Below are positions 2,847 to 34,035 of a stretch of 64,000 bases of DNA, in pieces. This stretch comes from Neolewinella litorea. Lineage in GTDB: Bacteria; Bacteroidota; Bacteroidia; Chitinophagales; Saprospiraceae. The position numbers and the translations under genes were made by a program. Where the stretch lies: assembly GCF_004803465.1 (NCBI RefSeq), contig NZ_SRSF01000004.1:62001-126000 (forward strand), written 5' to 3'. Within the stretch, counting starts at the first letter, position 1. Every line of letters begins with the position of its first letter. The notes beneath the pieces are model-generated. The model was not told where the DNA came from. It searched no databases and saw nothing but the letters and a program-made list of their open reading frames with translations.

Positions 2847-4065
2847 AGTAGTGATGAGTGTAGTCGGTGAAGTTAGCGGATTATCGGCACGCCTTCGGCC
2901 TCTATGCGTCGAAGCGACACAATTCCGGTTTGTCCAGCCTGTTGCAGCAAGCGTGCCAATACGTAAGGAAGACCGTGACGTCTTCCGGCTTTTTGCGGGT
3001 TTTTATGTGAACAAGACGACCGTGATCTCCTCATGTACAAAGGAAAAGATCGTCAGTAAATGAATTTCGGCATGGCCCGGACGGTAAACCTGGCAACTGT
3101 ACGGGACGGTCGGGGAACCTTCCGTCGGCCTTGCTAGATGGTGTGGAGGCGCAAGCGTTTACACAAGTAATCAACCTTGACTGTCCGTACAACGACCGGG
3201 AGCCGGACTCTTGTATGATGGCCCTGCAAAAAAAGGTAGTGGCCTTACGCCCTGCCGCCGCTGCGCGTCTGTGATGCATGGAGGTGTATCTTCAATTTGG
3301 TTAAGGCAAGCGTATGCAACAACCGGTACCGTTTATCCATGATCAACCCGGCCAACGTGCAATCCGCTATCGTTGGCGTTGTCCTTTATTAAGGTGCCGC
3401 AAAACTAAGGCAGTACCGGGGCTTCTGCAAGGGGCGCGGGCGCGGGTGCAAGGGGCAAGACCGAAGCAGCCGGCATCGTGGTCACGGCCGCTCGGAATAG
3501 CTTGATAATATGGCTGACAAAGCCCTGTGCACGATAAAACCGAAACGTTAAAGTTCTCCGTTTTCCCGGGTGGGAAGTAACTTTAGAGTAAACAACAGGA
3601 TTATAGAGTAGCTGCTGATATCCGATAAGGAAGAGCAGTCTGACTGTAATGGTATGTTTCGCCAGGGTTCGTCTTTGGCAGAAAGCAAGGTTTAAAAAGA
3701 TTTCCTCAAATGGCGCATTTGTCGTCTGTTGTGCATGATGATGACAAGCAAGTTGGGTGTCGGGTGCTTTATAGCTTACCTTCGCCGCCGCCTAACTGTT
3801 GCTTTCCATGTGGTACCGGGTTGCATCACCTTCCCCCGGTCCGCATAAACTATCCCCTTGCTTTTTGTCGTAAGTCTTAGCACGAACAGGTTTGTACACC
3901 TGCCATAAACGTCCCACACCTAGACATACCACTGAGTTTTTGGTTCTCAATGGTCCGACACGCTTACTTCTTGAACGACGCTTAGCAACCCAATTCCCAC
4001 CCACGCCAACCGAATAATTAACCCGGTTGGAAAGTACTTTAAAGAGGGTGCCCAAATTGACACTA
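2847..4065. other. 1.2 kb gene-free stretch between the capsule operon and the giant adhesin gene
   Basis: This divergent intergenic region is unusually long for the window. Small frames at 2851-3063 (plus), 3031-3279 (minus) and 3314-3505 (plus) have no recognisable domain, signal or family look, and I do not call them. The right part (from about 3500) is AT-richer than its surroundings. The best promoter candidate for the giant gene lies at 3753-3784. I see no tRNA, IS end or CRISPR here. Confidence 0.5.
3753..3784 (+). promoter_or_regulatory. Candidate Bacteroidota promoter for the giant adhesin gene
   Basis: TTG (3753-3755), a 21-base spacer, then TACCTTCG (3777-3784), one mismatch from TAnnTTTG. 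It would give a leader of about 275 nt before ATG 4066. Confidence 0.4.
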
Positions 4066-7000: not shown

Positions 7001-10000
7001 ACGTTGCCGACTACGGAGAGCGCACCATCGTACTGGTCAAGCCCAGCGATAACTCAGTTGCCCAGCCCTCCATCACCGTGACGCCCACCTCGATCGTGAC
7101 CGACGATGTTGTGGACGGCAAGCCGGGTAAGGAGATCCTGGTCACCTTCGCCAATACCGGTACCGCAGCCCTGCGGAAGCCCCGGGTCACCCTTGCCGGA
7201 CCCGATAAAGATCAATTCGCCCTCAACCTGGCCACCGTACCAAAAGAGGTACTGGACGCCCAGCAGTCGGCCTCCTTTCTCCTGACCTTCAACCCCACCT
7301 CCCCGGGTACCAAAACCGCCAGCATTGTCATCACCGGCGAAAATGCCGTGGTTTCCGCTGAAGTCTCCCTAAACGGCCTGGGTAAGAAGGGCACCGGCGG
7401 AGGCAATGAGCCTTCCCTCCAGCAGATCTTCGATACCTACGGCTTCCCGATCGCGGTAGGCGACACCGATCCCACTACCAACAAGATCGATCTGCCCGCC
7501 GGCAAGAATTACAACTCCATTATCGGAGACGAAACCTCCATCCAGTACTTCCAACAGGCGACGGATGCTCCGATCGAAGTCGAGGTACTGGGCGTTTTCG
7601 GACCCGAGGCCAATGATCCCATTGTCGGGTTCGGCTGGTACGAGAGCGGCATCACCGCCTCCGCTTCGGAACTGTTCACCGTACGTAACAACGTGGCCGG
7701 CAACGGTCAGACGCTGAACCCCGCCGTCACCGGCGTCCAAAAATTCAACGTGGGTGAAAAGGTCTTCGGCTTCTACAGCCGCTGGCCCTTCTTCAACAAC
7801 CGCTACCTCTATTCCGAGGATGTCCTGAATCAGTTTTCGGGTGCCATCCCGCACCACGTCCGGGTGTACGAGATTCCCGGGGTGGACAACACCTACATCA
7901 TCGCTTTCGAGGAGCACATTGACGGCTTCGACTATCAGGACCTCGTAGTACTGGTCCGCAACATAGAACCCGCGGCTGTCGTGCTGGCACCCCGGATTAC
8001 GGCTACTCCGCCCGAACTGCTTTTCGAGGCAATGGAACTGGCCCAGGGGCCGCAGGCCGATACCGCCGTGGTGACGATCACGAACAGTGGAAACGCCACG
8101 CTCAAGATCACCTCGGTGACGCTTGGTGGACCGTTCGGCGGCGAGATCAAGAACAACTACAAATTTACCGGTCCCCAGAACGTAAGCCTCGAGCCCGCCT
8201 CGAAGCAACAGTACACCGTCATCTTCGACCCGCCCAACAACGGTGATAACCTGGGTTACCAGGAAGCGAAACTGACGTTCAAGACCAACACCGAATCCGG
8301 CACCTTCGTCCTTGGCTTGCACGGCCTCAAGAAGCGCGGTTCCGGCGGCGGCGGCGAACCCCCCCTGCAGGATGTGGTCAAGACCCTTGGCTACAACGTG
8401 AATGTTGGCTGGACTACCCTCAATCACACTACCTCGGCTACCCTTCAGGGACAGGAGATCGCCGAGCCCCTTTTCCAGGCCGCCGGTCCGGAAGGGGTAA
8501 GCATCACGGCTATCGCCCGTTACTCTCCGGCCGAGCGTCTGCCCTTCGGTTGGTACCAGATCGACGGAAACGGCAAGATCAACCGCACCGAAGCTGGTGT
8601 GCTGAAAAATGGCGTACCTGAGTCGCAAATGCTGTTCCCGCCCCGGGAATCCGGTGACCAGACGACCACCTTCAATCCCCGCGGAGCCTTCGGTCTGTAC
8701 GTTTACTCCAATAGCTTCAACCGCTACAACTACACTCAGGATGAACTGAACCAGGAGGTGCCCCACCGCGCCCGGGTGTACCCGGCCCGCAACCGCGCCG
8801 GAACGATCATCCCGAACAGCTACCTCATCGGATTTGAGGACGCGACGAATGGAGATTACCAGGATTACCTCTTCCTGATTACCAACGCCCAACCCTACGT
8901 GGCTCCCGATCCGGCCCTAGCATTTGAGCCTTCCGAAGTGCGGGCCAACGCCGTAGCCGGTCAGCTGTCCGGGCGCTACACCGTGGAGTTGACCTCCAAT
9001 ACTCCCATTGCCGATAACGCCGTCAGCTTGTCGGCCAGCCAGCCCTGGATCATCCTGCCCACGAGTTTCACCTTCGGAGAGCTCATCGACGTTTCCGTGG
9101 ACGCCTCCCAATTGCAGTTTGGTGTCTACGAAGGCACCGTGACCGCCCGCGCCAACGGATTCGAATCGGGCGTACTTAAGGTAATTGCCACCGTAACCGA
9201 GAAGCAAAAGCCCGGAACGGTCAAGGTCAACTTCCAGGACGACACCTTTGATCCACCGGCAGGCTACGTAGCCGACGTCGGTGCAGCCTACGGCCCGCGG
9301 GCTAATGGACTGACCTACGGATGGATCAACCCCTCGACGAAGCAACCGCAGGACAATACAGCTGCGGCACGCGGAGACGAAAGGGGCATCACTTCGCTTA
9401 GCTCCGATGCGGACAAGCTGCTGCGCTCCTTCAACCAGCTCGACGTGCCGGGACTGAACAATCCCCACGACTGGGAGATTGCCCTGCCCAACGGACTCTA
9501 CCGGGTGCAACTGGCTGCCGGTGACCAGGGAAGCACCAACGGCAAGCACACCCTACGGGCCGAAGGCGTGGTCGTGATCGATCGCTTTATCCCGTCCTCT
9601 AACAGCACCTTCCAGGTAGGCGTCGATACCATTCGGGTATCCGACGGCAAGCTTACCATTGACGATGTTGGAGCGCCCGAAGACGGCAACACCAAGATCA
9701 TTTACGTCGACATTATCCCGGTAGACAGTAGCAGCTTCGCGCCTGAACTGACCGTCGATCTGGTCGGCAACCAGAACCAGGCCGGTGAATACTACGGCAG
9801 CGTAACGGTAACCCTTTCGGCCGCCGACCGTTCCGGCGGTGGCCCCCTGGGCGATATCTTCTATACGCTCAACGGTGGCCAGGCCCAGCGCTACACCGGC
9901 CCCTTCCAGGTAACCATTCCCGCCGGCACCACGGCCCAGGCCAACCAGCTGACGGCCACGGTCACCGATGGACGGGGTAATGTCGGAACGGTAAAACGTC

Positions 10001-13000
10001 CGTTTACCCTTATTCAAAGTTCAGGGGCCCTGCTGCGTCTGGAGAACATGGCCAAGATCCGCTTCCGCGACCGGGGTTTCCCAGCCGACGACTGGTACAC
10101 CTTCAACAAGATCGAGCGCCCGGTCAACTTCCAGGGTACGCCTACCGTGACCCGCCTGGAGAATACCGCACGCATCCACAACGACGGCACCAGCCCACTG
10201 GTCATCAATAAACTGACCACTACCGATCTGGACCACTTCATCATCGTTCAGCCCAGTGTGCCCGCCGAAGGACTGGTGATTCAGCCCGGAGCGTTCGTTG
10301 ATGTCGTCATCCGCTTCGTAAATGAGGCTCCGCCCTACCGCCGCCTCATCACCGAAAAACTGGTGATCTCTTCCAATGCCGATAACGCCCTGGATACCGA
10401 AGCTACCCTCGTCGGAGCCTGGATGAATACGCCGGAAGGAAGCAGCGAGCTTACCACCCAGCAGCTGTTCGAGGCCTTCGGCTTCGAAACCCAGATGGGT
10501 AAGGACGCCAATGGCAACTACATCACCAATCCCGGATCGTACATCCCGACCGAAGCCCAGATCGCTTCCGGACAGGAAGGCGATTTGATCCTGACCGATT
10601 TCTTCGTACAGGCCAACCCCAGCGAACCGGTGGAAATGATGCAACTGGCCGCATTCCACGCCCGGGGCGCGAATAAGACGATCCTGTACGACGCCAACAA
10701 GGTGAAGATCAACCGGATGGAAATGGACCACGGACCCTCCTGGTTCCAGGCCGTGCTGCCGTGGAACCGCGACGACCTTCCCTTCCTGACCGGGGTATTC
10801 AACAACCAAGTCGACGTACCCTTCTCGGTCACCATCAACGGTTACAGCTCGCGCGGCGGAAACTCAAAAGGTGAGTTCGCCGACAAGATTCTGGGCGTCC
10901 GGATCTATAAGGCCATTGGTCGGGACGGACGGGTCATTCCCAACGAATACATCGCCATCCAGGATGCCATCGGCGACGGCTGTGGTGCCGGACAAGGTAA
11001 CTGTGACTTCCAGGACAATATGATCTACTTGATCAACGTCCGCCCCGTCAAGCAGCCCAGTGCCTCGGCCATCACTAACGTGACGCTCGACGTATTGGAT
11101 GAACTGAATTACGACCTGAATCCCTTCTTCAACAAAGGCTACCCCGGCAACCGGCTTACCTACGCCGCGACCCTGGAGAACGGACAACCGCTGCCCGACT
11201 GGGTGAGCATTGACTCCCTGAGTGGCAAGGTGCTCATTACGCCCGGCCTCGAAGAAGCCAACCAGCAGATCCGCGTACGGGTAAAGGCAACGGACTACAA
11301 CCTGATTACCGTGAGCTCCACCTTCACCATTACGGTGCGGGATACGGATATCAACTGTACCGTCAATGCCAACGCCGACGGTCAGCCCAAGACCCTGGAC
11401 TGCAACACCGGCACCGTACGCCTTCGCGGAAACGTTTCCGCCGGCAGCTACCAGTGGAGCGGCCCCAACGGATTCACTTCCACCGAGCAAAATCCGCTGG
11501 TATCGGTCGCGGGTACGTATACCCTGCGTACGAACGCCAACAACTGTCCATTGACGAGTTCGGTGGTCGTATCGCCCCGGCCCACGCCCGCTACGCTTGT
11601 CATCGAAGCGCCCTACACCAGCATCACCTGCTCGGTAGCTTCCATCGACCTGACGGCCAAGTCGGGCGATACGGGAGCATCCTATAAATGGTACAACGCC
11701 AGCAACCAGGTACTCGGCTCAGCCGCCCTACTGCAGGTTAACCAGGCCGGCACCTACCGCGTCGAAGCCACTTCCGCCAGCGGCTGCGTGGTCACTAAGT
11801 CCATTGTGATCAAGCAGGACCTCTCCGCGCCCAGTGCCGGCGCCGATGGTTCGATCACCGTGTGCGGCAACGCCGAAGCCTTCAGTCTGTACAGCCGCCT
11901 GGCTGCCTTTGGGGGCAACCCCCAGGCCGGTGGAACCTGGACTTTCAATGGTGTGGTCGTATCGGATATGTTCACGCCCCAGACCGCCAAGTCCGGTGAG
12001 TACATCTACACGGTCGGCGGTAAAAACGGCTGTGGTAACGACTTTGCCCGCCTTCAGGTGCAAATCACCGCTCCCCAGACCTACTATTCCGATATCGACC
12101 GCGACGGATTCGGTGATCCCAACGAGCCCCTCCTTTCCTGTGTGGTGCCCCCCGGGTACGTCACCAATGCGGCCGACAACTGCCCGACGGTCAACTCCAA
12201 GAACCTGGCCGACGCGGATGGCGACGGCATAGGAGACGGCTGTGATCCCGACGACGACAACGACGGCGTGGAAGATGAATTCGACTGCCAACCGTTCAAC
12301 GCGCGGGTCGGCCGGGCAACGATGTACTATGCCGACTTTGACGGCGACGGCTTCGGCGACCCGAACAACGGCTTCGGCACCTGCGCTCTGGCGCCCGAAA
12401 ACTACGTGGCCAATAACCTGGACAACTGCCCCTTCAACTTCAACCCCGACCAAACCGACAGCGACGGCGACGGAGTAGGAGACGTATGTGATGAGTCCGC
12501 AGCCGGAGCCTCTGTATTCTGGCTGGAAGCGGAGTGTGCCGAGGTTGGCTTCAAATGGAACCGCGTACGCAACGACACCGTTTCCAACGGCGAGTACGTG
12601 GTGTACAAGGGTGAGAAATCTACCACGAGCCCGCCCATGGCCAATGCCGAGAACCTGGTAACCTTCCGCCTGCAAGGCGTCCAGGCGGGTAAATACAACA
12701 TCTTCGGACTCTTCCTGGCTTCCGACCCCGCAAGCGATTCGTACTGGATACGGATCAACGGCGGAGAGTGGTTGCGCTGGGCGGATAACTTCAAGTACGG
12801 CAAATGGGCCTGGAACGCCTTGTCGCAGAGCGGCTTCGACCTGCCCGACGGTGACGTGGTCATCGATGTAGCCTACCGCGAACCCAACACGCTGTTCGAC
12901 AAACTCTACGTAGCGCTGAACGGCACCATGCCGACCGGCCTCGGTGGAGAAGCCCTGAACTGTGCCCCCGCCCTGAACGAGGCCCCGATTGCGGTAGCGA

Positions 13001-16000
13001 AGCTGTCGCCCCCCTACGGCAACGCTCCATTGACCGTCACCCTGGACGGTAGCGGGTCTTCGGACAAGGACGGCAAGATCGAGAGTTACTCCTGGGACTG
13101 GGGTAGCGGCAGCGCGCAGGGTCAAAGCCCTCAGGTAACCTTTAACGAAGGCACCTACAGCGTAAGCCTTACCGTAGTCGACAACAAGGGTACTGCGGGA
13201 ATGGACGTCAAGACTCTCCGGGTCCTCAATCCGGACCAGGATACCGACGGTGACGGCATCAACAACGACGAAGACGTTTGCCCCCTGTTCGCTAACCCGA
13301 ACCAGCTGCTGCCGACCTTCTACTCGGACACCGACAACGACGGACTCGGTGACCCCGCCGTCTACGTGGAAAACTGTGAAGCGCCCCCCGGCTACGTTTC
13401 CAACTCCCGGGATAACTGTCCGAACTTCACCTCTACCGACGTCACCGACACCGACGGCGACGGCATCGGCGACCAGTGCGACGATGACGACGACGGCGAC
13501 GGTTTCCCCGATGCGGAAGACTGTAACCCCCTGAACCCACGCGTGGGTAAGTTCAACACCTACTATGCCGACTTCGACGGCGATGGTTTCGGTGATCCGA
13601 ACAACAGTGTAACGGACTGTACCCGCCCCGAAGGCTACGTGCTGGACAACACCGACAACTGCCCCTCCGTGTCCAACGCGGACCAGATGGACAGCGACGG
13701 TGACGGTATCGGAAACACCTGTGATCCATCCGTAGTAGGTAAGAATACCTTTTGGCTGGAAGCGGAGTGCGCGCAGGTCGGTTCCAACTGGGTGCAGGGC
13801 AGCGCTACGGGTGCTTCCCGCGGCAAGTATGTCGTGTTCCCCAATGGCAACTCCTACAATGATCCCCCCGCCGACGTGCCCGCTAACCGCATTCGCTTTA
13901 CGGTGAACGGTGCCCAGCCGGGTAAGTACCACGTATTTGCCCGCATCCGCGCGCAGGACTCGAGCGATGACTCCTTCTGGTTCCGCATCAACAACGGATC
14001 ATGGGTCAAGTGGTCGAACAATATCCAGAGTGGTTCCACCTTCGAATGGAATGAACTGCTCGACAGCCCCTTCACCCTCCCGGACGGTACTTCGACCATC
14101 GATATCGCCTACCGGGAAGACGGCGGCCAACTGGATAAGATCCACCTCAACGTGGACGGAGCGGTACCCACCGGGACCGGTCCGATCGCCTCGAACTGTG
14201 GTGAAGAAGTCAACAACCGCCCCGTGGCCGTTGCCGCCGCTGACCCGACCTCTGGTCTGGGCCCGCTGCAAGTAACGCTTGACGGCACCGGCTCTTCGGA
14301 TTCCGATGGTGTCATCATCAGCTACAAATGGGCCTGGAACGGGGGTGGAACCGCCGTAGGTCCCAATCCCGAGATCGTCCTTAACGACGGCTCCTACAAC
14401 GTAACCCTGACCGTCACCGACGACGATGGTGATACGGCCACCGACGTGGTAGCTATCAACGTGCAGCGTAACAATACCGATACCGACGGAGACGGCATCC
14501 GCGACGTAGAAGACAACTGTCCGACCATCGCGAATCCGGATCAGCGGCAGAATACCTACTACGCTGATTTCGACAACGATGGTTACGGTGATCCCAACAA
14601 TACCATCCTGGCCTGTGCCCCACCCGAAGGGTACGTGGACAACAAGCTGGACAATTGCCCCGATAACACCTCCTCCAGTCTGAAAGACACGGACGGAGAC
14701 GGCATCGGCGACGCCTGTGACCCCGACGACGATAACGACGGGGTAAACGACGGTCAGGATTGCTATCCCCTCGATGCTTCCCGCAGTGTAGGACCTACCT
14801 ACTACGCGGACCGCGACGGCGACGGCTTCGGTGACCCGAATGAATCGATTACCGCCTGCAACCAGCCGGCCGGTTTTGTACTCAACAATACGGACAACTG
14901 CCCCTCGATCTCCAACCCCAGCCAGACGGATGCGGACAACGACGGGATCGGAGACGTCTGTGACCCCTCTGTACCGGGCGTCAATGTCTTCTGGCTGGAA
15001 GCAGAATGCGCCCAGGTTGGAGAACAATGGTCGGTGGTAGACGCTGAAGGTGCCTCAAACGGCAAGTACGTGGTTAGCCGGACGGCTGAATCACGCACCA
15101 CGCCCCAGGATATCCCCGCCAACCGCATTCGCTTCGTCATGGAGCGCGTACGGGCGGGCCGCTACCACATTTTTGCGCGTGTACTGGCGGCCAGTAATGG
15201 TGACGATTCCTTCTGGGTGCGCGTCAACGACGGCAACTGGGTTGAATGGTCCAGCGGCATCATCATCAACGGCCAGTTCAACTGGAACGAGGTGGTCCGC
15301 AGTCCCTTCGAATTCCGCGAAGGCTACAATACCGTGGACGTTGCCGTTCGGGAGAATGGAGCCCAACTGGACAAACTGCACATTGACTACGAAAGTGCCA
15401 TGCCCACCGAAATGGGCGGCGACGCGATCAACTGCGGTACAACTTCCCCGGACAACCGACGTCCGGTAGCCCTGGCTGCCGCTACGCCGACCACCGGTCA
15501 GGCCCCCCTTAATGTGCAACTTGACGGTGGTGGGTCCTCCGATCCCGATGGCTCCATCGTGAGCTACAACTGGACGTGGGAAACCGGATCCGCCACGGGT
15601 GTCAACCCCGCCATCACGCTGACCAGCGCCGGATCGTACAACGTGGTTCTTACGGTCACCGACGACGACGGAGCCAAGGCGACCGATCGGGTCATCATTA
15701 CGGTAGACGAATCCGAGAACGTGCCGCCGGTAGCAGTAGCTCTGGCCGACCCGCAGAGCGGTGAATCTCCCCTTACGGTGAACCTCTCGGGTGGATCCTC
15801 CTCCGATAGCGACGGCAGTATTGTTACCTACAAATGGACCTGGGGGGCGGAAACACTAACGGGTGCTGAAGTATCCCATGTGTTTACCACTGGTACGTAC
15901 TCGGTGACCTTGACGGTAACCGACAATGACGGTGCCACCGCATCGGATGTCGTCAACATCGAGGTATTCGATGCCGGTGTCGACAGCGACGGCGACGGTA

Positions 16001-19000
16001 TCGTGGATAGTGAAGACAACTGCCCCGATACCCCCAACCCCGACCAATCGATATCCACCTTCTACGCAGATACGGACGGAGATGGCTACGGTGATCCCAA
16101 TAATTTCATCCAAGCCTGCGAGCAACCCGCCGGGTTCGTGGCCAACGCCGACGATAATTGTCCGACGGTAAGCTCTCCCGACCTGACGGATACCGATAAC
16201 GACGGTATTGGCGACGCCTGCGACAATGACGATGACGGCGACGGGGTGGTTGACGCTGATGACTGTGATCCGCTCGATCCTGCGATCGGTGCTGCGCAGA
16301 CTTACTACGCGGATACCGACGGCGACGGCTTCGGTGACCCTGCTGACAGCCTGGTGGCCTGTGCAAAACCCGACGGTTATGTACTGAACGGAACCGACAA
16401 CTGTCCGACCATCGCAAACGCGGACCAGAAGGATACGGATGGCGACGGCCTGGGCGATGCCTGTGACGACGTGGTGGTTGGCTACACCTCCTTCACCATG
16501 GAAGCGGAATGCGCCGTGGTAGGTAGTGCCTGGACCCAGGAAGTCGATGCCAACGCTTCCAACGAAGCCTATGTAGTGTACCGCGGTACAAGCGCCTCGA
16601 CGGCTGCGCCCGCTGATGTTCCCCAGAACTACGTTCGTTTCATCCTTCAGGACGCCGAGGCCGGATCGTTCTATCTCTTCGCCCGGGTATTTGCAAAGGA
16701 TGCCGCCAGAGATTCTTACTGGGTTCGGGTGAACGAAGGCAACTGGACGAAATGGAACCAGTTCACGAAGTACGGGCAGTTCGTCTGGAACGCCGTTGCC
16801 GGAAGCCCGGTAACGCTCGTCACCGGTCGGAATACGATCGACTTCGCTTTCCGTGAATCCGAGGCGAAACTCGATAAGATCCACGTGGATGTCGACAATA
16901 CCCTGCCGACCGGTTTAGGTGAGGTCGATAGCGGTTGTGGCGAACCGGAGAACATCTTCCCGATCGCAAGTGGACGGCCGAGCCAGACCAGCGGATACGC
17001 TCCGCTGACCATCACCTTGGACGGAAGCCAATCTTCCGACCAGGATGGCACCATTGTCAGCTACAACTGGCAGTGGAAAAACGGAAGTACGACGGGCCAA
17101 ATGCCTACCGTAACCTTTGAAACCCCGGATGTCTACAACATCGTCCTCACCGTAACCGACAACAAGGGTGCTACGGATAAGGATACCATGTCCGTGACGG
17201 TCCTGGAGCAGCCTAATGAACTGCCGACGGCAGTAGCCCTGGCCACCCCAACGACCGGTGAAGCCCCACTGCGGGTACAACTGGATGGCACGGGTTCGAC
17301 TGATTCTGACGGTACAATCGCCGGCTACAGCTGGAGCTGGAAAGACGGTGGCATGGCCTCCGGTGCCCAGCCCGAGATTGAGCTGACCGAAGCCGGTACC
17401 TATGCGATCGTGCTGACGGTGACCGACAACGACGGTGCCACCGGTACCGATACGGTGACGGTAGTCGTCGATCCGGCCAACGTGGCCCCGACGGCAGTAG
17501 CCATGGCCACCCCAACGACTGGTGAAGCCCCGCTGCGGGTACAACTGGACGGCACGGGTTCGACTGATTCAGATGGTACTATCGCCAGCTACAAATGGAG
17601 CTGGAAAGACGGTGGCACGGCCTCCGGCGCCCAGCCCGAGATTGAGCTGACCGAAGCCGGAACCTACGCGATCGTGCTGACGGTAACTGACAACGACGGT
17701 GCCACCGATACCGATACGGTGACGGTGGTGGTCGATCCGACGGACACCGACCAGGATGGTATTCCGGATTCGGAGGACAATTGTCCTGCCGTGGCCAATG
17801 CCGACCAGGTTCTCCCGACCTTCTACGCCGATCGCGATGGTGACGGTTACGGTGATCCCGCGGAATCCATTCAGGCCTGCGCAGCTCCGGCTGGATACGT
17901 AGACAACAAGCTGGACAACTGCCCGACCATCAGGTCTGCTGACCTGACGGATACCGACGGAGATGGAATCGGCAATGCCTGTGATCCTGACGACGACAAC
18001 GACGGCACCGCCGATAGGTACGACTGCGATCCGCTCGATCCCACCATAGTGTTCCAGAACATCTACTACGCGGATACGGACAACGATGGTATTGGAGATT
18101 CGCGCAACTACACCTTCGGATGCACGCAGCCGGCCGGCTACGTAAGTACCTTCGGAGACAACTGCCCGACCATCTTCAACCCCGACCAACTCGATACCGA
18201 CGGTAACGGAGTAGGCGACGCCTGCCAGGAACCCGAGGTACACGACGGCAACTACTGGTTGGAAGCCGAATGTGCCGCCAATCCGGGCCGGTGGGCCGAA
18301 GGATCCAGCTCTGCTGCTTCGAAACGGAAGTTCATGGCCTACATCGGCTTGAATGATCTCTCCGCGCCGACGGCCGCCGATCCGGGTGCCCAGATCGTAG
18401 CGAAAGTTGATATCGTGGAAGCCGGAAACTTCCACCTCTTCCTGCGGATGCACGCCTGGAGAAGCAGCAGCAACTCCTTCTGGGTGCAGGTCGACAACTC
18501 CCCCTGGATGAACTTCTCCAAGTTCATTGACGGGAACCCGATCGCTACCAGAGGATTCGAGTGGGTCAAGGTGAACAACAATGGTACCGACGTGACTTTC
18601 TACCTGTCCGCAGGTGAGCACACGATCCGGGTTGCCAACCGTGGTGCCTACACTCTGCTCGACAAGTTCCTGGTATCCGCTTTGAAAACCGTACCCTCGG
18701 GTATGGGAGATGAGGCAACCAACTGCCCCACTAATCTTACCGCTCCCGATACCGAAACCGAATCACCTGACGTGCTCTCCGCACTGCTGGACGATGTGGT
18801 TTCGAAAGCTCCGGCAGTGGAACTCTACCCGAATCCGGCGATCGACCGACTGAACTTTGCCCTCCGCAGTGATTACCACGGCCGGGTGAAAGTGATGATC
18901 ACCGATATCCACGGTAGAACCCTGCGCGAATTCGAGTACGAGAAGGAAGCTGCAGTGCTGCAGGACGGCCTCGACGTATCCCAACTGCCGATGGGTACCT

Positions 19001-19062
19001 ACACGCTGCGCGTGCTGGAGAACGATCGTCAGTTGCTACAGAAGTTCGTGAAGCTGCGTTAA
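4066..19062 (+). CDS. Giant secreted multidomain adhesin-like protein with T9SS sorting domain (4,998 aa)
   Basis: Very large secreted surface protein. The frame is open from TTG 4027, but ATG 4066 gives a clean signal peptide (MNNTLRIAFTQ, then a hydrophobic core). Approximate order: lectin-like beta-sandwich (45-325); BACON-like domain (320-416); Big_5-like Ig domain (419-534); glucose/sorbosone-dehydrogenase-like beta-propeller (542-999); choice-of-anchor-D and DUF4114-like domains alternating (1002-1612); BACON-like (1612-1714); malectin-like (1717-1887); Ig-like; a third DUF4114-like domain (2126-2328); cadherin/Ig-like; three PKD-like Ig units. Then come five super-modules of thrombospondin-3 repeats plus a LEAEC carbohydrate-binding-like module, with one to three PKD domains between them (about 2670-4890). 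The protein ends in a type A T9SS sorting domain (ELYPNPAIDRL, then VKVMITD). Adhesion or polysaccharide binding is inferred from the domains. A perfect terminator follows. Confidence 0.9.
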   Translation: MNNTLRIAFTQISLLFSLLAFAGPGNGINLAPAPEAAGCSPISTLECSEIAVNLPFALSFDNNQGGILDRQDRGTGFTMVDPPSVTQFPAVPSLPDVPGLEPGLLNVNNGRLNITSTRGTRYELPPAGSDNNTQVNGLGVGFVAPGSVFDLEVDLTQPDFSSSSTAGDQQGGIWYGLDEDNYVKLALVKVSEQVQNVQLLVERINPAAPDRVIIEQIASSTFRSDANSVRLRLRVDPVFGTVSGYFSINGANEVLVSNAEGSTLALPESFGEGTDHDGDANTPNLTYGGLFTTHRLAPTSEAIVFSFDDFSIEVAPFTPSLILSPATVNLTQYQGEAPQRVEVRLLANDSKNPSITLTDNPSSASWLELPADANKPGTYFFYTKANLPVGDYSTTVTATAANYQSAQMKVTLKVSEASSVPRVLSSIPANGATNVTLTTSIRADDLYVPNQKDGIFGVDNSTITEQTVRLFNVKLNQYVSASVNGTGGGDAIVLSPTFSLESNTTYRFEINGVKDLTGATFEPYAATFTTAADNSGKETALDGVSFVKVGNVVTGETYSSLAIGPDQRLYGLRLSGTVDRWRIEPDGSLSNKETFTTLEDKYGARAAIGMVFSPQATLTEPIIFISHSTGVLNNAPAWDGKISQLSGPNLGTEKLVVTNLPRSRRDHLTNGIVFDPNQNNVMYFNVGSNTAGGAPDKAWGFREETLLSGATLRLDLDLLPPSKWPLNAKTTMDQSAINAANVNSPTLGSGTGTYVENGVTYPDNGTYNPYYVNAPLKLYATGIRNAYDLVWHSNGQLYIPANGTAGGSNTPASVDDTRRPDGTFYDYQDPSGKFPVIPATFGNNTQRDFLFRVDPLAEPLPYFGHANPRRGEFVLNRGPVDVTGYPNSIQPDPNYRGFAYNFDYGISPNGVIEYQSSAVGGKLQGALLVCRYSGGSDIIALVPNGPNGDILTAKVGIPGLTRFQDPLDLVEHRQTGNLYVADYGERTIVLVKPSDNSVAQPSITVTPTSIVTDDVVDGKPGKEILVTFANTGTAALRKPRVTLAGPDKDQFALNLATVPKEVLDAQQSASFLLTFNPTSPGTKTASIVITGENAVVSAEVSLNGLGKKGTGGGNEPSLQQIFDTYGFPIAVGDTDPTTNKIDLPAGKNYNSIIGDETSIQYFQQATDAPIEVEVLGVFGPEANDPIVGFGWYESGITASASELFTVRNNVAGNGQTLNPAVTGVQKFNVGEKVFGFYSRWPFFNNRYLYSEDVLNQFSGAIPHHVRVYEIPGVDNTYIIAFEEHIDGFDYQDLVVLVRNIEPAAVVLAPRITATPPELLFEAMELAQGPQADTAVVTITNSGNATLKITSVTLGGPFGGEIKNNYKFTGPQNVSLEPASKQQYTVIFDPPNNGDNLGYQEAKLTFKTNTESGTFVLGLHGLKKRGSGGGGEPPLQDVVKTLGYNVNVGWTTLNHTTSATLQGQEIAEPLFQAAGPEGVSITAIARYSPAERLPFGWYQIDGNGKINRTEAGVLKNGVPESQMLFPPRESGDQTTTFNPRGAFGLYVYSNSFNRYNYTQDELNQEVPHRARVYPARNRAGTIIPNSYLIGFEDATNGDYQDYLFLITNAQPYVAPDPALAFEPSEVRANAVAGQLSGRYTVELTSNTPIADNAVSLSASQPWIILPTSFTFGELIDVSVDASQLQFGVYEGTVTARANGFESGVLKVIATVTEKQKPGTVKVNFQDDTFDPPAGYVADVGAAYGPRANGLTYGWINPSTKQPQDNTAAARGDERGITSLSSDADKLLRSFNQLDVPGLNNPHDWEIALPNGLYRVQLAAGDQGSTNGKHTLRAEGVVVIDRFIPSSNSTFQVGVDTIRVSDGKLTIDDVGAPEDGNTKIIYVDIIPVDSSSFAPELTVDLVGNQNQAGEYYGSVTVTLSAADRSGGGPLGDIFYTLNGGQAQRYTGPFQVTIPAGTTAQANQLTATVTDGRGNVGTVKRPFTLIQSSGALLRLENMAKIRFRDRGFPADDWYTFNKIERPVNFQGTPTVTRLENTARIHNDGTSPLVINKLTTTDLDHFIIVQPSVPAEGLVIQPGAFVDVVIRFVNEAPPYRRLITEKLVISSNADNALDTEATLVGAWMNTPEGSSELTTQQLFEAFGFETQMGKDANGNYITNPGSYIPTEAQIASGQEGDLILTDFFVQANPSEPVEMMQLAAFHARGANKTILYDANKVKINRMEMDHGPSWFQAVLPWNRDDLPFLTGVFNNQVDVPFSVTINGYSSRGGNSKGEFADKILGVRIYKAIGRDGRVIPNEYIAIQDAIGDGCGAGQGNCDFQDNMIYLINVRPVKQPSASAITNVTLDVLDELNYDLNPFFNKGYPGNRLTYAATLENGQPLPDWVSIDSLSGKVLITPGLEEANQQIRVRVKATDYNLITVSSTFTITVRDTDINCTVNANADGQPKTLDCNTGTVRLRGNVSAGSYQWSGPNGFTSTEQNPLVSVAGTYTLRTNANNCPLTSSVVVSPRPTPATLVIEAPYTSITCSVASIDLTAKSGDTGASYKWYNASNQVLGSAALLQVNQAGTYRVEATSASGCVVTKSIVIKQDLSAPSAGADGSITVCGNAEAFSLYSRLAAFGGNPQAGGTWTFNGVVVSDMFTPQTAKSGEYIYTVGGKNGCGNDFARLQVQITAPQTYYSDIDRDGFGDPNEPLLSCVVPPGYVTNAADNCPTVNSKNLADADGDGIGDGCDPDDDNDGVEDEFDCQPFNARVGRATMYYADFDGDGFGDPNNGFGTCALAPENYVANNLDNCPFNFNPDQTDSDGDGVGDVCDESAAGASVFWLEAECAEVGFKWNRVRNDTVSNGEYVVYKGEKSTTSPPMANAENLVTFRLQGVQAGKYNIFGLFLASDPASDSYWIRINGGEWLRWADNFKYGKWAWNALSQSGFDLPDGDVVIDVAYREPNTLFDKLYVALNGTMPTGLGGEALNCAPALNEAPIAVAKLSPPYGNAPLTVTLDGSGSSDKDGKIESYSWDWGSGSAQGQSPQVTFNEGTYSVSLTVVDNKGTAGMDVKTLRVLNPDQDTDGDGINNDEDVCPLFANPNQLLPTFYSDTDNDGLGDPAVYVENCEAPPGYVSNSRDNCPNFTSTDVTDTDGDGIGDQCDDDDDGDGFPDAEDCNPLNPRVGKFNTYYADFDGDGFGDPNNSVTDCTRPEGYVLDNTDNCPSVSNADQMDSDGDGIGNTCDPSVVGKNTFWLEAECAQVGSNWVQGSATGASRGKYVVFPNGNSYNDPPADVPANRIRFTVNGAQPGKYHVFARIRAQDSSDDSFWFRINNGSWVKWSNNIQSGSTFEWNELLDSPFTLPDGTSTIDIAYREDGGQLDKIHLNVDGAVPTGTGPIASNCGEEVNNRPVAVAAADPTSGLGPLQVTLDGTGSSDSDGVIISYKWAWNGGGTAVGPNPEIVLNDGSYNVTLTVTDDDGDTATDVVAINVQRNNTDTDGDGIRDVEDNCPTIANPDQRQNTYYADFDNDGYGDPNNTILACAPPEGYVDNKLDNCPDNTSSSLKDTDGDGIGDACDPDDDNDGVNDGQDCYPLDASRSVGPTYYADRDGDGFGDPNESITACNQPAGFVLNNTDNCPSISNPSQTDADNDGIGDVCDPSVPGVNVFWLEAECAQVGEQWSVVDAEGASNGKYVVSRTAESRTTPQDIPANRIRFVMERVRAGRYHIFARVLAASNGDDSFWVRVNDGNWVEWSSGIIINGQFNWNEVVRSPFEFREGYNTVDVAVRENGAQLDKLHIDYESAMPTEMGGDAINCGTTSPDNRRPVALAAATPTTGQAPLNVQLDGGGSSDPDGSIVSYNWTWETGSATGVNPAITLTSAGSYNVVLTVTDDDGAKATDRVIITVDESENVPPVAVALADPQSGESPLTVNLSGGSSSDSDGSIVTYKWTWGAETLTGAEVSHVFTTGTYSVTLTVTDNDGATASDVVNIEVFDAGVDSDGDGIVDSEDNCPDTPNPDQSISTFYADTDGDGYGDPNNFIQACEQPAGFVANADDNCPTVSSPDLTDTDNDGIGDACDNDDDGDGVVDADDCDPLDPAIGAAQTYYADTDGDGFGDPADSLVACAKPDGYVLNGTDNCPTIANADQKDTDGDGLGDACDDVVVGYTSFTMEAECAVVGSAWTQEVDANASNEAYVVYRGTSASTAAPADVPQNYVRFILQDAEAGSFYLFARVFAKDAARDSYWVRVNEGNWTKWNQFTKYGQFVWNAVAGSPVTLVTGRNTIDFAFRESEAKLDKIHVDVDNTLPTGLGEVDSGCGEPENIFPIASGRPSQTSGYAPLTITLDGSQSSDQDGTIVSYNWQWKNGSTTGQMPTVTFETPDVYNIVLTVTDNKGATDKDTMSVTVLEQPNELPTAVALATPTTGEAPLRVQLDGTGSTDSDGTIAGYSWSWKDGGMASGAQPEIELTEAGTYAIVLTVTDNDGATGTDTVTVVVDPANVAPTAVAMATPTTGEAPLRVQLDGTGSTDSDGTIASYKWSWKDGGTASGAQPEIELTEAGTYAIVLTVTDNDGATDTDTVTVVVDPTDTDQDGIPDSEDNCPAVANADQVLPTFYADRDGDGYGDPAESIQACAAPAGYVDNKLDNCPTIRSADLTDTDGDGIGNACDPDDDNDGTADRYDCDPLDPTIVFQNIYYADTDNDGIGDSRNYTFGCTQPAGYVSTFGDNCPTIFNPDQLDTDGNGVGDACQEPEVHDGNYWLEAECAANPGRWAEGSSSAASKRKFMAYIGLNDLSAPTAADPGAQIVAKVDIVEAGNFHLFLRMHAWRSSSNSFWVQVDNSPWMNFSKFIDGNPIATRGFEWVKVNNNGTDVTFYLSAGEHTIRVANRGAYTLLDKFLVSALKTVPSGMGDEATNCPTNLTAPDTETESPDVLSALLDDVVSKAPAVELYPNPAIDRLNFALRSDYHGRVKVMITDIHGRTLREFEYEKEAAVLQDGLDVSQLPMGTYTLRVLENDRQLLQKFVKLR
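12073..18725 (+). repeat. Five tandem TSP3 - LEAEC - PKD super-modules inside the giant adhesin
   Basis: Each unit starts with calcium-type thrombospondin-3 repeats (DNCP, DTDGDGIGD, CDPDDDNDG). A module of about 150 residues follows, beginning LEAECA and ending with a DKL/DKI strand and a PTGxG turn. One to three PKD domains link it to the next unit. TSP3 blocks start near 12073, 13240, 14480, 15985 and 17741; LEAEC modules start near 12520, 13753, 14995, 16495 and 18250. The fifth unit has no PKD and leads into the sorting domain. Confidence 0.9.
17224..17751 (+). repeat. Recent 264-bp tandem duplication of one PKD domain
   Basis: Two copies of an 88-codon PKD unit (17224-17487 and 17488-17751) differ at only a few bases, whereas other PKD units in this gene are clearly diverged. 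Confidence 0.9.
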
Positions 19063-30840: not shown

Positions 30841-32538
30841 GTGCACCTACCGCTCTTACTGATCTTCGCGCTGCTGTATTCATTTTTCCTGCCGGCCCAG
30901 TACGCACCCCCTCTGCGCGGGCCGCTGCTGGTAACGGGTACCTTCGGTGAGCTGAGGAGTGATCATTATCACGGCGGACTGGACTTTCGGGCGTCGGTAG
31001 GTACCCCGGTGCGGTCGGTAGCCGACGGCTACGTGAGCCGCGTGCGCGTGAGTGGGGGAGGGTTCGGGCAGGCGGTCTACGTGGATCACCCCGACGGGAA
31101 GCGGAGCGTGTACGGTCACCTGGAGGTGCTGGCTCCCGAACTCAAGGACACCATCCGCAAGTTGCAGTACGCCCGGCAGTCCTTCGAGATCGACTTCCGC
31201 CCTGACTCCCTGGCGTACCCCGTCGGGCAGGGGCAAGTTATCGGCGGGGTAGGGAACCGCGGCTTCAGTTTCGGCCCCCACCTGCACTTCGAGATTCGGG
31301 AAGCGGCCACGGATGCCCAGCTGAATCCCCTTTCCCTTGGCTTCGTGATTCCGGATACGCGCCAACCCCAGCTGCGCAACCTGCGGCTCTATACCTGGGC
31401 GGACGGGGAGCCCGAGTCGACCGCGGTTTCCTACGACCTGATCCGGAACGAGTTGCCGGATACGCTCTACGTCGCGGCGCCCCGCATCGGCTTCGGGCTC
31501 AAGGCCTACGACCGGCAGAACAGCATGCCGAACTGGAACGGGATCTACCGCGCCAACTTGTGCGTGGACAGTACGGAGGTGTTTTCCTTTGATTTTGACC
31601 GGGTACCGCTTGAGAAAACGGCCTACATCAATGCGCTGACCGACTATCGCGAGTGGCGGCGCAACTCCTCCTGGTACTACCTGCTGTACACGCCGGTGGC
31701 CGAGGCCGGCTTCTGGGCTGAAACGCCGCCCGCCGCCGGTGACGGAATACTGAACCTGCCAGCAGGCGTCCCGAAGCGCGTGAACATCACCGCTACCGAC
31801 TACGCCGGCAACACTTCCTCCGTGGAGGTGGTAGTGGTACACCAACCGATTAAGGGCCCGGTCGCCGCAACAAGTGGAAAAGCGGCCGCCGCGCCCCATC
31901 AGTACTTTCTGCCCGCGGGTGAGGCCAGCATAATCGATACGGCAGGCCTGCGCCTGGAACTGGACGAGCTGGCCCTGTACGAAGACCTGCGGTTCCGCTA
32001 CGTACGGCTGGAAGATGCCTCGGAGGGCTACCTGAGCGACGTCCACCAACTGCACGACCCCGAAACCGCCCTGCACGGCCGGGCGGTGCTGCGATTGCGG
32101 CCGCGTACTGTGGTACCCGATTCCCTGCGCGAACGCGTGTACATTGGCAAATGCGGATCCGACGGAGCCCCCCGTACGGTAGGCGGTGAATGGCTGCCCG
32201 ACGGGAGCATGCAGACGAATATCGGCGCGTTCGGCGATTATGCCCTGCTGCTGGACCGGGAGCCCCCGGAGGTTCGTATCCGTGACTTCCGCTCGGACCT
32301 GCGCGGCCGGCCGGGCTTCAGCCTGTTCGTAAAGGATGCCGTAGGCGGGGAACTTGGCTACCGCGGCACCGTGGATGGCGAATGGGTGCTGCTGGAGTAC
32401 GATGCCAAGTCTGGCACCCTCACCCATACCTTCGAGGATATGCGCAAAATCGGGGGCAACACCACCCACCGTTTTGAACTCGAGATCACCGACGGGCGGG
32501 GCAACCGGACCACCTTCACCCGCGATTTCCGGCGTTAG
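30841..32538 (+). CDS. Secreted M23 family metallopeptidase
   Basis: 565-residue exported protein with an N-terminal LytM/M23 peptidase domain likely to cut peptidoglycan cross-links. The start is GTG 30841: it opens a signal peptide (LLLIFALLYSFFLPAQ) and sits 20 bases after a -7 promoter element. Zinc ligands are HxxxD (His44, Asp48) and the HLH pair (His147, His149), all present, so the enzyme should be active. The remaining 400 residues form beta-rich domains, with Ig-like strands near 310-330 (RVNITATDYAGNTSSVEVVV). M23 proteins of this length and layout are common in Bacteroidota. Confidence 0.9.
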   Translation: MHLPLLLIFALLYSFFLPAQYAPPLRGPLLVTGTFGELRSDHYHGGLDFRASVGTPVRSVADGYVSRVRVSGGGFGQAVYVDHPDGKRSVYGHLEVLAPELKDTIRKLQYARQSFEIDFRPDSLAYPVGQGQVIGGVGNRGFSFGPHLHFEIREAATDAQLNPLSLGFVIPDTRQPQLRNLRLYTWADGEPESTAVSYDLIRNELPDTLYVAAPRIGFGLKAYDRQNSMPNWNGIYRANLCVDSTEVFSFDFDRVPLEKTAYINALTDYREWRRNSSWYYLLYTPVAEAGFWAETPPAAGDGILNLPAGVPKRVNITATDYAGNTSSVEVVVVHQPIKGPVAATSGKAAAAPHQYFLPAGEASIIDTAGLRLELDELALYEDLRFRYVRLEDASEGYLSDVHQLHDPETALHGRAVLRLRPRTVVPDSLRERVYIGKCGSDGAPRTVGGEWLPDGSMQTNIGAFGDYALLLDREPPEVRIRDFRSDLRGRPGFSLFVKDAVGGELGYRGTVDGEWVLLEYDAKSGTLTHTFEDMRKIGGNTTHRFELEITDGRGNRTTFTRDFRR

Positions 32539-32876
32539 GGTTCGGCGACCAGTTGACGGACCAGCTGATTGATGTGGACCAGCCGCTCCTTGTCGATGCT
32601 GTAAAGGATGTATTTACCCTGCCGCTCCCGCTTGACGATTCTTGCCTTGCGCAGGATGGCCAGGTGTTGGGAAGCGACGGACTGTTCTACCCGCAGCGCG
32701 ATGAAAATATCCGTCACCGTCAACTGGTCGTTGTCGTAAAGCAGGCGGATAATCTGCTGCCGCAGATCGTGGTTCAGCGCCCGCAGGAGCAGCGCCGCCC
32801 GCGAGAGGGCGGAAGCGTCAACCAGTGTGCCGCTTTCGGAATCGTCCGGTGTAGGGTGGTTGGAGGATTTTGACAT
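32535..32876 (-). CDS. ArsR-family winged-helix transcriptional regulator
   Basis: 113-residue DNA-binding protein. The winged helix-turn-helix covers about residues 28-100 (LRALNHDLRQQIIRLL, LTVTDIFIALRVEQSVASQHLAILRKA, then the wing ERQGKYILYSID). There is no cysteine metal site of the CxC type, so it belongs to the branch that senses something other than classical metals, or nothing. The last codon overlaps the 3' end of the M23 gene. A consensus-like promoter sits just upstream, giving a leader of about 16 nt. Confidence 0.92.
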   Translation of the reverse strand: MSKSSNHPTPDDSESGTLVDASALSRAALLLRALNHDLRQQIIRLLYDNDQLTVTDIFIALRVEQSVASQHLAILRKARIVKRERQGKYILYSIDKERLVHINQLVRQLVAEP

Positions 32877-32897: not shown

Positions 32898-32928
32898 CTA
32901 ATATAACGCATAAGCGTGTCGGAAACAA
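32898..32928 (-). promoter_or_regulatory. Promoter of the ArsR-family gene
   Basis: On the minus strand: TTG, a 20-base spacer, then TATATTAG, one mismatch from TAnnTTTG. It lies downstream of the sRNA terminator, so the regulator has its own start. Confidence 0.6.
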
Positions 32929-32971: not shown

Positions 32972-33003
32972 AAAAAAAAGCCTTTAACACTCGGTTAAAG
33001 GCT
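32972..33003 (-). terminator. Intrinsic terminator of the candidate sRNA
   Basis: On the minus strand: a perfect 10-bp stem (plus-strand 32994-33003 with 32979-32988), a 5-base loop, and eight T residues. Confidence 0.85.
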
Positions 33004-33075
33004 ACATAACAAACACTATGAACAACACAAGATCTTAAGAACGTCCCATTCAGGACGGGTTGATTTTTCTCGGCG
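32972..33075 (-). ncRNA. Candidate novel small RNA, about 104 nt
   Basis: A transcription unit with no credible protein. It has a perfect Bacteroidota promoter at 33080-33109, a predicted start near 33075, a small 5' hairpin (cgtcc/ggacg) and an intrinsic terminator at 32972-33003. It does not match tmRNA, SRP RNA, 6S or RNase P by length or signature sequences. The 105-residue frame across it starts upstream of the promoter and reads through the terminator, so it is not its product. An alternative is an attenuated leader of the downstream ArsR gene, but that gene has its own promoter. Confidence 0.6.
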
Positions 33076-33079
33076 ATGA

Positions 33080-33109
33080 CAAAGATAGTCTTTTTGACAT
33101 TAATTCCAA
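33080..33109 (-). promoter_or_regulatory. Promoter of the candidate sRNA
   Basis: On the minus strand: TTG, a 19-base spacer, TATCTTTG, an exact match to TTG-N-TAnnTTTG and the same -7 element as the rpsF promoter in this window. Confidence 0.75.
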
Positions 33110-33216
33110 TCGAAAACCCAAATTGGGGTTCATTTTTTTTCGAAAGCGGAGAAACCGACCACCGGATGTAAAGAATCCGGGGGTTTCCCCCGACCTTGGG
33201 TCCGACCTTATGGCCT

Positions 33217-34035
33217 ATGCAACAGTCATTACTGCAATACATAGAGCGGCCTTCGCTGCTTTCCGAGATCACATCAGAAAAAATTCTGGATCTGATCGCG
33301 CGGTACCCCTATTCAACGAACCTTCGGTTGCTGTTATTGCTGAAGGCCCGGCAAGAAAAGGATCCCGACTACGAAAAATACCTGAACCGCTTCGCTTCCG
33401 CCACCTTTGACCGTACCCACCTGTACAACCTGCTCGCCGCACTCGACCTCCGCGAAGAGGAACGCGGGGAAGTGCTGGAGCTGTTAGAGTTGGAAGAACT
33501 GGAACTTGCGCCCCTGGAAAACATCTTCAACGAAGAGCTTCCTTCCCGGCTGAATGAGCTGCCCAACCCGTCGGCCGCGGGCACGGTTAATGACCCTGAT
33601 GAGGAACTGCCGCCGCTGATGCCGCCGATCAGCCGAACGCGTGCTACATTCGCCCCTCCGGTGCCGCGGTCCGGCATTGGGGAGTGGGTAGATCTGGCCA
33701 GCGCCTACAGTCAGCTGCTGCCCGTCTTCGTAAGGGTAGCCCGCCCGGAAGATCCGGCCGTCTTCCAGGAACTGATCAACGGACGGTCGCGGAGCGCGAA
33801 CCTGAGCGATCGCCTGCGGAAATTGCGCCGCCGGCAGCAATCGGCCACGCCGCGGAAATCTTCCGCCGACACCGGCGACGGGGGGGTGGTCGTCAGCGAA
33901 ACCCTGGCCGCCCTGCTGGTGCGTCAGGAGCAATACCAGAGCGCCATCAAGATGTACCGGCGACTGATCTTGCTTTATCCGGAGAAAAAACCGATCTTTG
34001 CCGGCCTCATTGAAAAACTGAAGGAAAAATTATAA
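33217..34035 (+). CDS. Uncharacterised protein upstream of secG
   Basis: 272-residue soluble protein. ATG 33217 (MQQSLLQYIERP) is preferred to the earlier TTG 33196. It has no signal peptide. An N-terminal helical part (SEITSEKILDLIARYPYSTNLRLLLLLKA) and a C-terminal TPR-like helix pair (LLVRQEQYQSAIKMYRRLILLYPEKK) flank an acidic, proline-rich middle with two Glu/Leu-rich helices. The layout is a scaffold or tetratricopeptide-like protein. It ends 4 bp before secG and is surely co-transcribed with it. Function unknown. Confidence 0.75.
   Translation: MQQSLLQYIERPSLLSEITSEKILDLIARYPYSTNLRLLLLLKARQEKDPDYEKYLNRFASATFDRTHLYNLLAALDLREEERGEVLELLELEELELAPLENIFNEELPSRLNELPNPSAAGTVNDPDEELPPLMPPISRTRATFAPPVPRSGIGEWVDLASAYSQLLPVFVRVARPEDPAVFQELINGRSRSANLSDRLRKLRRRQQSATPRKSSADTGDGGVVVSETLAALLVRQEQYQSAIKMYRRLILLYPEKKPIFAGLIEKLKEKL

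Follow-up and report, generated by a model that had tools for sequence, protein, structure and literature searches.

This locus raises the question of whether a short intergenic segment in the genome of Neolewinella litorea is a free-standing small RNA (sRNA) gene or a part of the gene downstream, and of what its RNA might do. The segment lies in a window of 64,000 nucleotides (assembly GCF_004803465.1, contig NZ_SRSF01000004.1, positions 62,001 to 126,000), which is the whole stretch of DNA analysed, and all coordinates count from the start of this window. Along the minus strand, from position 33109 to 32972, there is a promoter of the Bacteroidota type. A short leader, the unpaired core and an intrinsic terminator follow it in that order. 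Judged by comparison with related genomes, this is very probably a real sRNA gene. We also consider it likely that the gene is an independent unit whose RNA pairs in trans at the start codons of target mRNAs and so keeps the ribosome off.

Architecture of the locus and its conservation in the genus

The promoter consists of a -33 element, TTG (33107-33109, minus strand), and a -10 element, TATCTTTG (33080-33087). Their combination, TTG-N19-TATCTTTG (33109-33080), is the only exact representative of the pattern TTG-N19-TAnnTTTG in the 64-kb window, where 0.15 are expected, which confirms the perfect minus-strand promoter reported in a preliminary description of this DNA. At least one exact match to the pattern is present in 14 of 100 shuffled versions of the window. 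RNA polymerase would start at this promoter, near position 33073 as judged from promoter spacing, and would stop at the terminator to yield a predicted sRNA of about 102 nucleotides (32972-33073, minus strand), of which positions 33043-32976 are matched by the covariance model described below. The terminator stem begins 77 nucleotides below the promoter, and between the two are a small 5' hairpin (CGTCC/GGACG, 33057-33042) and a largely unpaired stretch that includes the 21-nucleotide core GTGTTGTTCATAGTGTTTGTT (33028-33008), which is the proposed seed. The terminator hairpin (33003-32979), recovered by folding and by a terminator scan, has the stem of 10 base pairs and the loop of 5 nucleotides that had been described, and it is followed by a T tract (32978-32972). 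Only seven of the eight T residues that had been claimed are unpaired, the eighth being the last paired base of the stem.

There are two neighbouring genes. Downstream on the same strand is an arsR-family gene (32535-32876, minus strand), identified from the list of open reading frames (ORFs) and the Pfam domain HTH_5, and on the other side is a divergent gene without a Pfam match that encodes 272 amino acids (33217-34035, plus strand; start picked by eye). A plus-strand hairpin followed by eight T residues is located at 33115-33138, just upstream of the sRNA promoter. Near the divergent gene, at 33172-33199, is a stretch reading AAGGTCGG..GAAACC that recurs in several loci of the genus.

A generic terminator scan of the window finds 5 terminators where 5.2 are expected, which is chance level, and the element strand as a whole folds no better than shuffled sequences (z -0.79). 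Thus, a single sequence cannot decide the matter and comparison is needed. At the level of sequence, it is conservation that raises the element above chance. A DNA search recovers the element in 17 of the 20 other genomes of the genus, and 18 of the 21 genus genomes, that of N. litorea included, have an exact copy of 16 nucleotides of the core. The three genomes that lack the element (G011, G013 and G019) show no obvious consequence. There are 18 unique loci, one per genome, each with an arsR-family gene (HTH_5) downstream, and the same divergent Pfam-less gene is located upstream in 17 of them.

Two genus alignments were used, one with 14 loci and the other with 18 sequences, one of which (L016) is one column out of register. 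Among the 14 loci, the DNA aligns poorly outside three blocks, namely the -10 box, the core block and the terminator. The TAnCTT portion of the -10 box is invariant, and there are 33 consecutive invariant columns, TTGTGTTGTTCATAGTGTTTGTTATGTAGCCTT, that span the core. An exact TAnnTTTG is present upstream of the core in 10 of the 18 genus loci (1.56 expected), located 40 to 56 nucleotides before the core in those ten, and a full promoter, with TTG and the -10 box spaced by 17 to 21 nucleotides, is found in three of the 18 (0.12 expected).

The terminator stem is paired in 98.3% of 180 cells (18 genus loci by 10 base pairs). Changes on both sides occur at 4 of the 10 pairs, a number reached in 2 of 500 shuffles, and they affect 9 cells compared with 2.7 in shuffles, none of the 500 having as many. 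By these counts, the terminator stem co-varies. Compensatory changes in both hairpins had been proposed as a test, and they are found for the terminator only. The 5' hairpin does exist in N. litorea as had been described, but its sequence is not kept in relatives: it changes with each lineage and some have none, such that relatives keep at most some hairpin there. The mean folding z-score of this region over the 18 genus loci is -1.1, with values above 0 in four, and no compensatory changes can be counted because the sequence cannot be aligned. Since it varies by lineage and is sometimes absent, the sequence of the 5' hairpin is not what selection keeps. The preliminary description overlooked what is, from the alignments, the main point: the most conserved part is the unpaired 21-nucleotide core between the two hairpins.

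The genus loci also bring up an alternative, in which the element is the 5' leader of arsR and carries a transcription attenuator, in which case its function would be to control read-through in cis and any short RNA would be a by-product. All 18 unique loci in this genus context are upstream of arsR on the same strand, at distances of 49 to 156 nucleotides except for one at 7 nucleotides. In addition, the separate arsR promoter that had been proposed at 32898-32928 is weaker than claimed, since its -10 element is TATATTAG rather than TAnnTTTG. An exact TAnnTTTG lies between the terminator and arsR in six of the 18 loci, and in the other 12 the gene's own promoter lacks the exact consensus. The relatives in other genera bear directly on this alternative.

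Relatives in other genera and gene contexts

A covariance model built from the 18 genus-level copies (cut-off E <= 0.001) finds one copy in the N. litorea genome and matches 50 of 199 genomes of the family, N. litorea included, with up to four copies per genome. Among 30 family loci from this search, two (L060 and L071) lack a plain core and one (L068) has half a core; thus, the core is not demonstrated in each of the 50 matching genomes. An alignment of 29 family copies from 26 of these 30 loci (L025, L026, L027 and L029 were left out) has 22 invariant columns, of which 19 are in or directly beside the core. Two loci have three (L020) and four (L057) head-to-tail copies about 110 nucleotides apart, each with a core and a terminator, which suggests tandem duplication. 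Across the class, the model matches 12 of 345 genomes, again including N. litorea. On inspection by eye, most of the other 11 matches are bare terminators, and they were not accepted as family members; something seed-like is seen only in L081 and L084, which both belong to group f58.

A degenerate search for the core in a collection of species genomes gave at least 119 stretches, with 164 places among the matches listed. Among these listed matches, a terminator follows the core at 137 of the 164 places, in 95 stretches, and 37 stretches have two or more such places. The terminator-bearing stretches, judged by eye for 80 of the at least 119, are nearly all from Saprospiraceae, Lewinella/Neolewinella, Phaeodactylibacter and unplaced Bacteroidota. 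Their common form among the matches listed is a tandem pair in which RNA-B (GGGTGAGTGTTTGTTCATAGTTTTTGTT) is followed roughly 100 to 450 nucleotides on by RNA-A (TTAGTGTTTGTTCATAGTGTTTGTT), each copy having its own terminator. This pair is often located before pdxH (PNPOx) and after an RND efflux gene (ACR_tran), as in many Saprospiraceae loci between L087 and L205 (e.g. L093 at 80-202, L107, L114 and L123). The information content is about 1.9 bits per base over the core in RNA-B copies. In RNA-A copies it is lower, though still well above the flanks, and the core comes in two lengths. Several RNA-B copies have a 5' GGGTGA that is complementary to a TCACCC just past their own T tract, as though transcripts that read through could take up another fold.

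For counts of gene context, 215 copies were reduced to 165 unique ones. Among the matches listed, pdxH is downstream of 74 unique copies, arsR of 18 and another co-directional gene of 24, whereas 37 copies face a convergent gene and 12 have no ORF in the stretch. For 61 of the 165 listed copies the gene downstream is neither pdxH nor arsR, the 37 with a convergent gene being among them. A cis-acting arsR leader should always be found upstream of the same gene on the same strand, and this is not the case among the 165 copies listed. The wider family often has pdxH next, sometimes within 40 nucleotides, which would suit a leader, but this explanation does not account for the same anti-start core in front of unrelated genes, nor for the separate terminator of each tandem copy. 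We therefore regard an arsR leader as unlikely. Conservation in 18 of the 21 genus genomes and the presence of paralogs next to other genes support the original proposal of a free sRNA gene that has a promoter and a terminator of its own. Outside the genus the promoter motif shows no enrichment, being found at 14 of 144 loci compared with 11.9 expected.

There are 48 core matches in viral contigs, of which 46 lack a terminator. The other two, L222 and L239, pass the terminator rule, and only L239 looks like a true copy; L222 does not. The L239 copy resembles RNA-B, with a core and a terminator at about 5040-5110 of an IMG/VR contig of the viral collection, and Rfam reveals nothing convincing at this locus.

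No Rfam family reaches its gathering threshold in the window, in agreement with the initial statement that the element does not resemble tmRNA, signal recognition particle RNA or 6S RNA. Other sub-threshold Rfam matches (rnk leader, histone 3' UTR) are weak and were taken as chance. In a search of journal papers, mainly open-access ones, on small RNAs of Bacteroides, Saprospiraceae and Lewinella, on multicopy small RNAs of Bacteroidetes and on pdxH-linked ones, no title or opening of an abstract pointed to this family. The claim that the RNA is undescribed thus holds for Rfam 15 at its thresholds and for the literature searched. The family is widespread in Saprospiraceae and apparently undescribed.

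A conserved core complementary to translation starts

The core, GUGUUGUUCAUAGUGUUUGUU, is 21 nucleotides long, hardly changes and is largely unpaired. Its reverse complement, AACAAACACTATGAACAACAC, has the form of a translation start, AACAAACACU-AUG-AACAACAC, and the letters of the core thus spell an anti-start word. Bacteria of this phylum start translation without Shine-Dalgarno sequences. In Flavobacterium johnsoniae, an A at position -3 and at positions -12 and -13 promotes initiation, as described in PMC6847099, and the complement of the core likewise has an A at -3 and an A-rich stretch upstream. This Kozak-like start context of Bacteroidota is a property of mRNAs, however, and not an RNA family.

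These observations lead to the mechanism that we favour. The unpaired core would pair in trans around the AUG of a target mRNA, with the CAU at 33020-33018 facing that AUG and with AACAAACACU-AUG-AACAACAC as the ideal site. Such pairing would block the ribosome, and repression of translation would be the simplest effect. Like a trans-acting base-pairing sRNA, the sequence has its own promoter, an intrinsic terminator and a conserved seed that is unpaired and complements the ideal start region, the specific targets being candidates only. The likely targets would be mRNAs that begin AUG-AAC/AAA-AA, a class to which many secreted and surface proteins belong. Thus, the RNA probably represses the production of some proteins, perhaps those of the cell surface. 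We tentatively entertain a broader form of this reading, in which the seed is the complement of the Bacteroidota start context itself, and one nearly frozen 21-nucleotide word would address a whole class of mRNAs rather than single genes. That class would comprise the secreted, surface and exopolysaccharide genes beginning AUG-AAC/AAA-AA, and the carriers of the word would be the paralogous sRNAs and the RNA-B/RNA-A pairs.

There are only three occurrences of GTTNTTCATAGT in the N. litorea genome: one in the sRNA and the others opposite the ATG of two genes, which encode a siroheme-synthase-type protein (NAD_binding_7, Sirohm_synth_M) and a Pycsar-effector-type protein (PycTM). Where the 19-base core lacks a terminator, the opposite ATG opens an ORF of at least 60 amino acids, or one that runs off the contig, in 14 of 27 cases among the matches listed from public genomes and in 34 of 46 viral contig matches, many of the latter 34 being one phage gene that begins MNKQEI. 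Where the core has a terminator, an opposite ORF of at least 60 amino acids is present in 10 of 137 cases among the genome matches listed and in neither of the two from viral contigs. A further alternative places the functional element on the other strand, as a tiny ORF that would start AACAAACACT-ATG-AACAACAC and encode MNNTRS or a similar peptide. The complement does provide a good start context for the phylum, with an A at -3. However, among the copies and sites inspected the peptide is free to differ in both sequence and length, with 4 to 58 codons in the short cases, and the promoter and T tract point to the opposite strand. A tiny ORF is consequently a most improbable explanation.

Near-invariance over 21 nucleotides would also fit a protein-binding site. 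Perhaps the core chiefly binds an RRM protein, with the RNA serving as a sponge or decoy and with mRNA pairing being secondary. There is one RRM_1 protein encoded in the N. litorea genome, which might play some role here, and the RRM-1 protein RbpB binds the FopS and GibS RNAs in Bacteroides thetaiotaomicron according to PMC11697453. In that account, however, RbpB counteracts FopS, and titration does not appear as its main role. Furthermore, a U-rich protein site need not be an exact complement of a start region. We consider this explanation improbable and continue to favour pairing at start codons.

How closely real starts fit the core is a separate question. At 169 unambiguous starts from 464 kb of the N. 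litorea genome, the complement of the core agrees at 7.20 of 24 positions, compared with 5.91 at internal ATGs. Permuted consensus strings score 6.80 (sd 0.28) at starts, and because 34 of 500 do as well as the core complement, the in-register match is mostly a matter of composition. The corresponding count for loci L087 to L205 was not used, since these were fetched by the core pattern and the count is biased. In a sample of 20 stretches (400 kb) of the genome plus the window, the mean duplex energy of the core at starts (-12.2) is not below that at internal ATGs (-12.9), and random places give -11.7. The reversed core gives -10.7 at starts, -12.3 at internal ATGs and -11.8 at random places, such that starts show the largest gain relative to the reversed core.

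Candidate targets and the resemblance to FopS

Sites that match the pattern with at most 2 mismatches in 16 number 137 across the 21 genus genomes, sRNA copies included, compared with 33 for the backward pattern. We inspected 30 loci, a further 20 stretches picked from the better matches, and 48 others in which the ATG is intact. Several of the inspected sites coincide with the start codon of a gene whose product has a hydrophobic N-terminus, and others are further sRNA-like genes. Further sRNA-like genes in genus genomes (L283, L316, L305, L318, L307 and L300) share TGTTGTTCATAGTGTT or a close variant; upstream of most there is a -10 box of the ATCTTTG type, and in several the word CATAG is repeated. 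The N. litorea genome may hold a remote gene of this TGTTGTTCATAGTGTT type at L036.

Three inspected sites are orthologs of one Wzc/Wzz-like exopolysaccharide kinase, with the domains GNVR and CbiA above the cut-off and Wzz just below it, and the N. litorea ortholog opens the window. Its candidate site is at 2012-2038 on the minus strand, with the ATG at 2026, and duplex energies range from -15.1 to -24.6 over nine genus orthologs. For a ranking free of such selection, the 38 ORFs of the window were compared with the matching regions of six relatives; 34 have orthologs in at least four of the six, and 24 groups were scored (group mean -12.5, sd 3.0). The kinase ranks second among these groups at -16.9.

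The best of the 24 groups is a gene (4066-19062, plus strand) for a surface protein of 4998 amino acids with Ig-like, PKD and TSP_3 repeats and a T9SS sorting domain. Its candidate site is the start region GACACTAATGAATAACAC (4059-4076, plus strand), and the duplex formed by the gene start GACACTAATGAAYAACAC and the core has a single bulged A. Over N. litorea and five relatives, the mean duplex energy is -21.2 and the worst is -18.1, and further orthologs give -24.2 (G001) and -28.3 (G020). Among 300 dinucleotide-shuffled cores, three have a best group as low, two reach as low a value on the giant-protein group itself, and 24 reach its z-score. In three relatives (G004, G017 and G012), homology of the giant protein begins only at about residue 420 (63-65% identity), after a different N-terminal part, and a search with the first 400 residues does not recover the protein at that place. 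The start regions there still keep much of the site (-18.1 to -20.2) despite the replaced N-terminal part, which suggests constraint on the bases. A TTTACG that follows the paired part of the giant-gene start is conserved and is not accounted for by this RNA, and some other sRNAs of the genus carry an AAAG before the core that matches it.

Among the genomes that lack the RNA, G011 and G013 have no match to either the giant protein or the Wzc-like kinase, and G019 has only distant homologs (35% and 47% identity), the start site of its giant-protein homolog giving -15.1. Because orthologs share descent and only one window was ranked, the ranking is a lead and not proof. The evidence for targets is thus modest, and the giant surface protein and the Wzc-like kinase are the best candidates.

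The closest known counterpart is FopS (RF04319), a set of paralogous sRNAs of Bacteroidaceae. In B. thetaiotaomicron, FopS base-pairs with the start region of susC mRNAs and thereby halts their translation, as reported in PMC11697453. Like the present family, FopS is multicopy, with a canonical promoter and a conserved start-complementary seed followed by an intrinsic terminator, and the cores GUGUUGUUCAUAGUGUUUG and GUGUUUUUCAUGGUAUUAG are alike at 15 of 19 bases, as counted by eye on the alignment. FopS is only 65 to 70 nucleotides long, however, with its seed in the single-stranded 5' end, whereas the RNA predicted here is about 102 nucleotides and has its seed inside, starting some 45 nucleotides after the predicted 5' end. 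There are 14 copies of FopS in B. thetaiotaomicron, compared with one copy here in N. litorea and up to four in other genomes of the family.

The FopS model scores 22.7 bits against the element, far below its gathering score of 56. The E value of this match is 0.26 over 361 bases and 0.74 over the entire genome, where no other FopS match has E <= 10. The same model has no match at E <= 10 in 20 other loci (19 from the family plus L081; 60.8 kb). Assignment to FopS was therefore rejected because of score, length, seed position, copy number and the lack of matches in the other loci. By analogy, the element may work like FopS, and the similar letters could arise independently because both match start regions, although common descent could be an alternative to convergence. 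GibS of B. thetaiotaomicron also has a start-region-binding seed, R1, which it shares with FopS according to PMC11697453. It differs from the present RNA in having a second seed, R2, and a different type of promoter, a distinction drawn from its published description.

In the literature searched, the trans-acting sRNAs of Bacteroidota whose mechanisms are resolved come from Bacteroides. If the proposed mechanism is true, a near-invariant anti-start core in Saprospiraceae, a family that includes Neolewinella, Phaeodactylibacter and many uncultured bacteria, would extend start-codon silencing far past the Bacteroides of the gut. A single 21-nucleotide word would then provide a ready handle for finding the regulon. 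It would also become testable whether such RNAs arose repeatedly because the translation starts of the phylum share an A-rich context without a Shine-Dalgarno sequence.
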